Shown here: piece after piece, positions 2,478-35,666 of the stretch
Layout of the letters: each line of letters begins with the position of its first letter
Numbering within the stretch: position 1 is the stretch's first letter
Assembly (NCBI GenBank): GCA_027450225.1
Contig: DAIDJK010000129.1
Location: 1-36,307 of the forward strand
Source: Bryobacterales bacterium
GTDB lineage: Bacteria; Acidobacteriota; Terriglobia; Bryobacterales; Bryobacteraceae
Direction: 5' to 3'
Length of the DNA: 36,307 nt
Program-made: the position numbers and the translations under genes
The notes under the pieces: generated by a model
Database searches by the model: none
What the model was told of the DNA's origin: nothing
Seen by the model: only the letters and a program-made list of their open reading frames with translations

Positions 2478-3615
2478 ATGACGCTCGACGAACTCGAACG
2501 CGAATATTCGCCGCTCCGCGAACAGGCATCTGCCGTGCGGAGCTATCTTTGACGCCGCCGGTAAAAAGCAGGAATTAGAACGCCTCGAACAGCAGATTTC
2601 CGCGCCGGATTTCTGGTCTCAGCCTGAGAAAAGCCAGAAAGTGATGCAGGAGCGGAAGCGCGTGGAGGAATCGATCGAGAACGACGCCCGGCTGGCGGGG
2701 TTCACGGACGATCCCGACACGCTTTTCGAACTTGCGCGCGAAGGCGAAAGCGTGGACGGCGATATCGAACGGGAACTGCGCCGGTTCTCGGATACGATCG
2801 CGCAGCTCGAAACCGAGATGCTGCTTTCGGGCGAGAACGACGCCCGCAGCGCGATCGTGACCATTCATCCCGGCGCCGGCGGAACCGAATCCCAGGACTG
2901 GGCCGAGATGCTGCTCCGAATGTACCTGCGCTGGGCCGAGCGCAAGGGCATGCAGACGGTGATTACGGATCGCCTGGAAGGCGAAGGCGCGGGCATCAAG
3001 TCCGCCACATTCGAAGTGAATGGCGTGAACGCGTACGGGCTGCTGCAATCCGAGATTGGCGTGCACCGGCTGGTGCGGATTTCGCCGTTCGATGCAAACG
3101 CGCGGCGGCATACGTCGTTCGCGTCGGTGTTCGTGTATCCGCAGGTGGATGAGGAGATCAAGATCGACATCCGGCAGGACGATCTGCGCATCGATACGTT
3201 CCGTTCGAGCGGCGCGGGCGGCCAGCACGTGAACATGACGGATTCGGCGGTACGCATCACGCACTTCCCCACGGGAATCGTGGTGCAGTGCCAGAACGAG
3301 CGCTCGCAGCACAAGAATCGCGACAGCGCGTTCAAGCAGTTGCGCGCGAGGCTCTATGAGTTCGAGATGGAGAAGAAGCGCGAGGAGACGCGGAAGACTG
3401 AAGCGTCGAAGCTGGATATCAATTTTGGCAGCCAGATCCGGAATTACGTGCTCGCGCCGTACCGCATGGTGAAGGATCTGCGCACAAGGCTTTCGGCGGG
3501 CGACGTGGACCGCGTGCTGGATGGCGATCTCGACGACTTCATCCACGCCTGGCTGGTGTGGCGCAAGACCGGCAAAACGGCCGGGCCTTCGGGTGGTCCC
3601 GACGAAGCGGAATAA
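2478..3615 (+). CDS. prfB: Peptide chain release factor 2 (programmed +1 frameshift)
   Basis: RF2 terminates translation at UGA and UAA. Synthesis starts at ATG 2478 and reads 24 codons (MTLDELERE... ending SYL) to an in-frame TGA at 2550-2552; a +1 shift at CTT resumes at GAC 2551 and continues to TAA 3613-3615, giving about 378 residues. The post-shift frame opens with DAAGKKQEL and the family block SAPDFW. The UGA-reading tripeptide SPF is at about residues 202-204 and the catalytic GGQ is at 247-249, near the E. coli positions 205-207 and 250-252. The last dozen or so residues are a Gly/Pro/Lys tail. The 3' end overlaps the start of the sua5-like gene by 23 bases. A gene finder that ignores frameshifting would start this gene too late, near 2641. 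Confidence 0.96.
2539..2555 (+). promoter_or_regulatory. prfB autoregulatory +1 frameshift site
   Basis: The core reads TAT CTT TGA C with the in-frame stop at 2550-2552. Just before it, GGAG at 2539-2542 gives an internal Shine-Dalgarno-like element close to the slip codon, as in E. coli prfB where the element is AGGGGG. Low RF2 leaves the UGA unread and favours slippage of the P-site tRNA from CUU to UUU, so RF2 controls its own synthesis. The mechanism is established for prfB; its use here is inferred from the sequence match and from the open reading frame continuing in +1. Confidence 0.93.
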
Positions 3616-25312: not shown

Positions 25313-25726
25313 CTACTGGAACAGCCCCGTCAGCGCCTTCACATCCGCAATCAGCGCCCGCAGATGTTCGTTGCCGCCATCGCCGCAGCTCAAATCCGGC
25401 GTCGTCTGTCCGTCGTATTCGATCGTCAGCCGGTACCGGAAAGATGCCGGTTTCATGCAATGCGGCGCGGGCAGGGAAGAGAAGGGCATGGCCGCCTGCA
25501 GATCTGCAAACAGCCGCTGCTTCACGTCCTCCGGAATATCCCGGCTCGCGTGCCGCGGCGCGGCCGCCGTTCCGCCGCGCGGCATGGCCGCATACTCCGC
25601 CTTCCCGGCCGGATCGACGGCAATATGGAACCCCGCCTGGTTCGTGGACCCGCTATGGACAATTGTCGCGACGTTCGTTTGCGCCATCACGCTCACCAGC
25701 GCAGGCAGCAGCGCGAGCACTCGCAT
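25313..25726 (-). CDS. Small exported protein of unknown function
   Basis: A 137-residue protein with a signal peptide (MRVLALLPALVSVMAQ). Two cysteines in the mature part (PHCMK and LSCGDG) could form a disulfide, in a region with YRLTIEYDGQTTPDL. The start ATG overlaps the MaoC-like stop by one base (TGATG), placing it last in the folD operon. No family recognised. Confidence 0.72.
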   Translation of the reverse strand: MRVLALLPALVSVMAQTNVATIVHSGSTNQAGFHIAVDPAGKAEYAAMPRGGTAAAPRHASRDIPEDVKQRLFADLQAAMPFSSLPAPHCMKPASFRYRLTIEYDGQTTPDLSCGDGGNEHLRALIADVKALTGLFQ

Positions 25727-33750: not shown

Positions 33751-34128
33751 GTGACACCGACCACTACTGATACAAGCCCCGCCAGACCGGCAAGCATCGT
33801 CGCCCTTCTGGCGGGTATCTGGCTTTTTGTATCCCCGTGGGTCTACGGAGCCGCTGCCTCGCCGAATGCATGGAACAGCTGGATCGTTGGCGCGTTGATC
33901 TTCATCTTCGCCGCCACTCGCCTCAACCGACCGCTCCTCGCCGGCGTCAGCTGGCTCAACGTGATCCTCGCGATCTGGACCTTCGTTTCCCCGTGGGTCT
34001 ATGGTTACATCGGAAACACAGGCAGATTCATTAACAGCCTCTGTGTAGCCGTCATCGTGTTCGTAGCCGCCATGATCAGCGCCAATGCGCTCCCTCACGC
34101 CGGTATGCCGCGCCATCGGCACGTCTAG
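33751..34128 (+). CDS. SPW-repeat membrane protein
   Basis: A 125-residue inner-membrane protein with four hydrophobic segments. The two SPW repeats read WLFVSPWVYG (residues 24-33) and WTFVSPWVYG (76-85), the defining motif of this family. Start GTG 33751 is preceded by GGAGGT at 33737-33742, a strong site nearly ideal in sequence. SPW-repeat proteins are often found among stress- or envelope-associated genes but their function is not established. The gene is followed by a 14-bp inverted repeat and an AI-2E-type transporter gene. Confidence 0.9.
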   Translation: MTPTTTDTSPARPASIVALLAGIWLFVSPWVYGAAASPNAWNSWIVGALIFIFAATRLNRPLLAGVSWLNVILAIWTFVSPWVYGYIGNTGRFINSLCVAVIVFVAAMISANALPHAGMPRHRHV

Positions 34129-34139
34129 CCCGGTGATGC

Positions 34140-34187
34140 TCTCTCCGGGCCGGCGCAGCTTCTCTCCATCAGTCCGGCCCGGAGAGA
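34140..34187 (+). promoter_or_regulatory. Perfect 14-bp inverted repeat between SPW and transporter genes
   Basis: TCTCTCCGGGCCGG (34140-34153) and CCGGCCCGGAGAGA (34174-34187) pair perfectly around a 20-base loop, 11 bases after the SPW stop. Stem stability must be very high. There is no T-run, so a Rho-independent terminator is unlikely in the simple form; attenuation or mRNA stabilisation between the two genes is possible. Confidence 0.75.
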
Positions 34188-34210
34188 ACCTTCCGTCCAC
34201 TCCTTCTTCC

Positions 34211-35218
34211 ATGACCACCGCCGACTGGACCTTCCTCCGCCGCGTCCTCATCGTCCTCGTCCTGCTCGGCGCCGCCGCGCTGCTCTGTTACACCGCCCGT
34301 CTCCTGCTCCTCGTCTTCGCCGGCGTGCTCGGCGCCATCCTCATCCACTCCGCCGTCAGCTGGGTGTGCGGCAGGCTGCATCGCAGTTACCGTTTCTGTT
34401 ACCTCATCGTCCTCAGCGCCGCCGCCGCCGTCGTCGGCTCCGCCTGCTGGTTCCTCGTGCCGCGCGTCATCGTGCAGTTGAGCCAGCTCGGCTCCGCCAT
34501 TCCCAGAGGCGCCGAAGGCCTTCAGAACTGGCTCGATTCCACCGGCGCCGGCCGCATCCTCGCCGGGCACTCGTCGGTCGTCCTCAGCGGCATCGCGTCA
34601 AAACTCAGCGCCTATGGCTTTGACGCTCTCGATGCCCTCGTCGCGCTCGCCATCGCCGTCGTTCTCAGCGCCTATCTCGCCGCCACCCCGGAAGATTACG
34701 AACAGGGCGCGCTCAGCCTCATCCCCGCCGCCTGGCGCCGCCGAGCCGCTTCCATCTTCAGCGATGTCGCCCGCACCATGGGCTGGTGGATGATCGGCCA
34801 GCTCATTCCCATGACGGTCCTTGGCATCGTCAGCCTCATCGGTCTCCTCATCATCGGCGTGCCGCTCGCCATCACTATGGGCCTGTGCACCGGCCTCATG
34901 ATCTTCATCCCCTTCGTCGGCGCCATCATCGCCTTCATCGTCACCACCCTCGTCGCCATCTCGAGCGACCCCCATAAAGTGCCGCTCGTCGCCGTCGTCT
35001 TCGTCATCATCCACGTGCTCGAAGGCTACATCCTCACGCCGCTCGTGCAGAAGCGCGCCGTGCATCTGCCGCCCGCGCTCACCATCTTTGCCCAGGTCCT
35101 CATGACGGCGCTGTTCGGTTTCCTCGGCCTCGTGCTCGCCACTCCGGCCGCTGCCGGAGCTCTCGTCCTCGTCAAGCGCATGTATCTCGACGAAGCCGTC
35201 GAAAGTCCCGGTCTGTGA
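34211..35218 (+). CDS. AI-2E family (PerM/UPF0118-like) transporter
   Basis: A 335-residue integral membrane protein with about seven helices, including the paired helices VLIVLVLLGAAALLCY and YLIVLSAAAAVVG, and the C-terminal LEGYILTPLVQKRAVHLPP, a family signature. Members export small molecules or act in Na+/Li+ efflux; the AI-2 link is only historical. ATG 34211 is used; the leader (CCACTCCTTCTTCC) is pyrimidine-rich with no ribosome binding site, so translation may depend on the hairpin upstream. The open frame starts at 34085 but would include the inverted repeat. Confidence 0.9.
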   Translation: MTTADWTFLRRVLIVLVLLGAAALLCYTARLLLLVFAGVLGAILIHSAVSWVCGRLHRSYRFCYLIVLSAAAAVVGSACWFLVPRVIVQLSQLGSAIPRGAEGLQNWLDSTGAGRILAGHSSVVLSGIASKLSAYGFDALDALVALAIAVVLSAYLAATPEDYEQGALSLIPAAWRRRAASIFSDVARTMGWWMIGQLIPMTVLGIVSLIGLLIIGVPLAITMGLCTGLMIFIPFVGAIIAFIVTTLVAISSDPHKVPLVAVVFVIIHVLEGYILTPLVQKRAVHLPPALTIFAQVLMTALFGFLGLVLATPAAAGALVLVKRMYLDEAVESPGL

Positions 35219-35312
35219 ATTGCTTCACGCCCCCGCGCATTCTTCGCCCCGGACCTGCCTTACCTCATACAGGAACCAGAAGTGCAGTACTCACTCCGGG
35301 GAGGAAAAGCCA

Positions 35313-35666
35313 ATGCCACGAGGAGCCGGCCCGAAACGCGAACGTGAGTACGAGGAGCTGTAGCGCCGCTTCAAACGCTCCGGCCGCTATGGCAACCGCG
35401 CCGAAGAGGTCGCCGCCCGCATCGTCAACAAGCAGCGCGCCCAGTACGGCGAAACCAAAGGCGAGAAGCAGAAGGACCGCGCAGGCAAATCGCCGGATCG
35501 CAATCTGCCCATCAGCGGCTATCAGCACCTCACCATCGCGCAGATCAAAACCAAAATCGCCGGCCTGTCGAAGTCCGATCTCCGGAAAATCGAGACTTAC
35601 GAGAAAGCTCACAAGAACCGCAAAGGCGTCATGCAGGTGATCGGAAAGCAGCGGTCCGGCCGCTAA
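35313..35666 (+). pseudogene. Small basic protein gene with an in-frame amber codon
   Basis: From ATG 35313, with GGAGG at 35300-35304 upstream, the frame reads MPRGAGPKREREYEEL, then TAG at 35361-35363 (codon 17), then continues without further stops to TAA 35664-35666: RRFKRSGRYGNRAEEVAARIV, then NKQRAQYGETKGE, KSPDRNLPISGYQHLTIAQI and KAHKNRKGVMQVIG. Overall 117 codons. The N-terminus and the RAEEVAARIVNK block match a widespread family of small basic proteins (the MPRGAGPKRERE family) often annotated as plasmid stabilisation-like. A single base change from AAG, CAG or GAG would create the TAG. No alternative start codon lies between the TAG and the conserved block. Possible meanings: pseudogene, readthrough or sequencing error. 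Confidence 0.8.

Follow-up and report, generated by a model that had tools for sequence, protein, structure and literature searches.

A lone in-frame TAG at codon 17 of a small basic protein gene in a Bryobacterales draft genome, probably a nonsense mutation in an accessory gene

Lone in-frame stops and the protein families nearest to this locus

Lone in-frame stop codons are a common and well-documented occurrence in bacterial genes, and most of them do not persist for long. Readthrough may happen at some, a regulatory role has been proposed where dN/dS is below 1, and a substantial fraction is expected to consist of artefacts (PMC7918605). In E. coli, reporters gave mean TAG readthrough levels of 0.01-0.8%, depending upon temperature, with a G after the stop raising readthrough and a T lowering it (PMC11126739). 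We describe an in-frame TAG within the frame 35313-35666 of a Bryobacterales contig (DAIDJK010000129.1), the window being the whole 36,307-nucleotide stretch that was analysed and the window protein being the product of this frame. The locus shares with the surveyed single nonsense mutations in otherwise intact bacterial genes (PMC7918605) a single in-frame stop that one substitution separates from the likely ancestral codon, a conserved body, and a sense codon in relatives; it differs from them in being known from one draft genome only. A lone nonsense stop of such kind is ordinary.

Several described families resemble portions of the window protein. The N-terminal ~50 residues form a widespread small domain, which occurs as 51-residue proteins in other Acidobacteriota. 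Entries named “plasmid stabilization protein” from actinobacterial plasmids (e.g., WP_121548832.1 from Streptomyces fungicidicus p1) were 43-57% identical to the window protein over the N-terminal 49-61 residues, and have in common with it the start MPRG..PKRER.YE..K and the block AAR.VNK.RA; whereas, at the C-terminus the actinobacterial proteins have a weak Rho_N-like segment (under the Pfam cut-off) and the window protein has a YEKAHKNRKGV segment. The “plasmid stabilization protein” annotation is no evidence of plasmid function. Window residues 25-108 aligned weakly with the C-terminal region of the Rv1109c-type proteins (NF033649, profile positions 106-188, E 3.2e-9); the score against this Rv1109c lipid droplet-associated protein profile was 37.1 bits compared to a curated cut-off of 110, which places the window protein below family membership, and the remainder of the Rv1109c-type protein is missing from it.

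No Pfam family matched the window protein or its closest relative, a PDB search with that relative returned no match, a phage search with the window gene likewise returned none, and a literature search by family name found nothing. A nucleic-acid-binding role for the window protein is a guess, for which the basic composition is the sole basis. The C-terminal part of the protein (GYQHLT...YEKAHKNRKGV) recurs at protein ends in several phyla. The YEKAHKNRK segment was seen at the ends of proteins with differing N-terminal parts in MAGs of Acidobacteriota, Myxococcota, Actinomycetota and Verrucomicrobiota (L006 2001-2348, and L008-L013), and no Pfam model for the segment was matched in the proteins scanned.

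The interrupted frame and its homologs

When the TAG is read as a residue the frame codes for 117 amino acids, with this one internal stop only, and closes with TAA at 35664-35666 (Table 1). The earlier note, made from the letters of the window, had described a lone TAG at codon 17 of an otherwise intact gene with a ribosome binding site, in full agreement with the GGAGG found before the ATG and with the lack of a second stop.

Table 1. Coordinates of the interrupted gene, its parts and its neighbours within the window
Feature	Position	Strand	Basis
Interrupted gene, 117-residue small basic protein	35313..35666	+	Homologs, profile match, sequence
Shine-Dalgarno GGAGG, 8 bases before ATG 35313	35300..35304	+	Sequence
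In-frame TAG, codon 17	35361..35363	+	Sequence and homolog alignment
Intact coding body 3' of the TAG	35364..35663	+	Third-position-biased divergence from closest relative (L006)
AI-2E family transporter (PF01594), upstream neighbour	34085..35218	+	Pfam
Downstream neighbour, open to contig end, starts 2 bases after TAA	35669..36307	+	No Pfam match

The closest relative (L006, from Acidobacteriota MAG clean356; L081 is the same sequence, repeated) was 69% identical over 113 residues (1-113). In the 96 codons that follow the TAG, base differences between the two numbered 29/17/53 at codon positions 1/2/3. The NG86 estimates for the same codons were dN 0.29 and dS 2.0, giving a ratio of about 0.14 which is only indicative because dS is saturated, and which comes from a single close relative. 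The genes around L006 differ from those of the window, so the two loci are not syntenic. We take the frame 35313-35666 to be a real gene, i.e., more than a chance open frame, and the earlier suggestion that it looks recently functional was upheld by the identity to L006, by the bias of the differences toward third positions, and by the lack of other damage.

Codon 17 was compared across the homologs, a check which the earlier note had proposed. The codon was lysine (AAG or AAA) in 20 of the 21 distinct homologs covering the position and valine in the remaining one, and a stop was present in none of the 21; the same alignment comprised 24 rows including three repeats, with lysine in 23. The codon most commonly used by the homologs was AAG, which is one base from TAG, and L006 has AAA at this position, without a stop. 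Since the lysine is near-invariant, the TAG replaces one of the most conserved residues of the family. Of the well-conserved N-terminal columns, the window differed from the family in that of codon 17 and in two others, and in these two L006 differs as well. AAG, CAG or GAG had each been named as the possible original codon: the homologs indicate lysine, with AAG as the one-step source, and do not point to CAG or GAG.

A stop at codon 17 would leave 16 of the 117 residues. No ATG, GTG or TTG occurs in frame 3' of the TAG before codon 107 (ATG), followed by codon 109 (GTG), in line with the earlier note, which had judged reinitiation unlikely for want of a start codon between the TAG and the conserved block. 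The only possible non-standard starts in this region are ATC and CTG codons, the first being the ATC at codon 37, and restart at such a codon would yield a shorter protein. In-frame ATC codons from codon 37 on would permit this; however, codon 37 is already within the conserved N-terminal domain, the homolog alignments begin at the equivalent of codons 1-4, and with the standard starts missing until codon 107 we find such a restart scarcely credible.

Decoding of TAG in the genome

We saw no sign that TAG is decoded in this genome, where it serves as an ordinary stop. Release factor 1 (RF1) is present, and TAG terminates five other window frames, i.e., the four which had been cited earlier as using TAG as a real stop (ADH, DUF5666-like, short TsaC and SPW) and the frame 25313-25726. 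Matches to pyrrolysyl-tRNA synthetase (PylS) scored 22 and 20 bits, compared to a cut-off of 178. A search for an amber suppressor tRNA, suggested by the earlier note, found the anticodon CTA in none of the 28 tRNA genes detected; the set is incomplete, with several amino acids missing, and the missing anticodon is therefore not proof. Genome-wide amber recoding, or a pyrrolysine or suppressor system, is barely conceivable: the one internal TAG is all that speaks for it, and a suppressor tRNA might sit in an unassembled part of the genome, but the sampled genes had no other internal TAG, and RF1, the five TAG-terminated frames and the low PylS scores all stand against it. The earlier judgement that amber recoding was not indicated is in agreement with these data.

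Functional leaky or regulated readthrough would have the UAG at codon 17 set a low level of full-length protein by way of near-cognate tRNAs. The body is preserved without a second stop, basal UAG readthrough is known in E. coli (PMC11126739), and a regulatory role has been put forward for in-frame stops whose dN/dS is below 1 (PMC7918605), all of which would fit; however, a young pseudogene equally predicts the preserved sequence, the stop is in no homolog, the gene is absent elsewhere in the genus, and neither a suppressor tRNA nor PylS was found. RNA folding of the 100 bases 3' of the TAG was no better than that of shuffles (-30.6 kcal/mol, vs -33.4 +/- 3.1, z +0.9) and is not beyond chance. 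The base directly 3' of the TAG is C. We regard functional readthrough as highly unlikely, and a maintained low-expression switch, in which basal misreading would supply a little of a basic protein that is costly at full expression, as more doubtful still. The earlier note had left three options, namely a fresh pseudogene, readthrough (programmed or leaky) and a base-call error. The first is favoured and the last stays as a rival; the programmed readthrough is disfavoured by the stop-free homologs, the near-invariant lysine, the lack of RNA structure, and the absence of a suppressor tRNA among those found.

Origin of the stop and its genomic setting

A single A-to-T nonsense mutation probably made a young pseudogene, or a segregating null allele, of an accessory gene. 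With lysine and AAG at codon 17 of the homologs, and with the rest of the gene apparently maintained, a single substitution in AAG is enough to account for the TAG. The near-invariant lysine codon (most likely AAG) would have become TAG in a functional accessory gene; RF1 would terminate at codon 17, releasing a peptide of 16 residues that has the body of neither domain, and the locus would be either a young pseudogene or a null allele that segregates within the population. Traces of full-length protein could arise from basal near-cognate misreading of UAG, with no dedicated mechanism being apparent. Three points are inferred here, namely that the organism itself carries the T, that the mutation arose recently, and that the gene has lost its function. 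The weights given here to mutation, assembly error and functional readthrough represent judgement, and were not computed.

The main rival to the mutation is an error at 35361 (from base calling, consensus building or the mixing of strains), in which case the gene of the organism would be intact with lysine at codon 17. The genome is a draft of 555 contigs at 91% completeness, the change is of a single base, there is no other damage, and a substantial fraction of in-frame stops is expected to be artefactual (PMC7918605). Against such an error, we examined 428 kb from this genome, a figure that includes the window, along with 943 kb from a sister species, and found no other genuine internal stop in 51 frames of this genome aligned to the sister species, spanning ~19,400 codons (an upper figure, because some of the aligned frames may be shadow frames). 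Assembly errors of such kind thus look infrequent, and only a few random errors would create a stop codon. An error at 35361 is unlikely on this evidence, though it should be taken seriously. Two further frames here showed apparent internal stops, both TGA; these were rejected, since what aligned there resembles shadow frames and not proteins. Several apparent internal stops were also seen in the sister-species frames.

None of the 18 other genomes of the genus has the interrupted gene, so its absence is tolerated; a second copy was not found in this genome, where the only match had an E value of 0.3. The upstream AI-2E neighbour likewise had no counterpart in those 18 genomes at a threshold of E <= 1e-40, and there is thus no syntenic empty site to compare. 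The distribution of both genes suggests that 34085-35666, near the right contig end, is an accessory stretch of a native contig. Loss of the gene within this accessory part is plausible, and the best reading is that the gene is dispensable and sporadically held.

Frame 35313-35666 should be recorded in annotation as an interrupted gene and not as a case of recoding. With the nonsense mutation as the preferred reading, it illustrates the loss of a rarely held accessory gene through one base change. Before further claims are built on a lone stop in a draft metagenome-type assembly, the base should be supported by reads.

Misbinning of the contig was considered and rejected. The RF2 gene, which is on the same contig, is single-copy and up to 85% identical to that of genus members, and the contig looks native at the RF2 end. 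This gene, prfB (2478-3615, + strand), has the programmed +1 frameshift site in its classic form: a short frame opens at ATG 2478 and ends in CTT TGA C (TGA at 2550-2552), and the long frame continues. This is a genuine and well-known recoding event.
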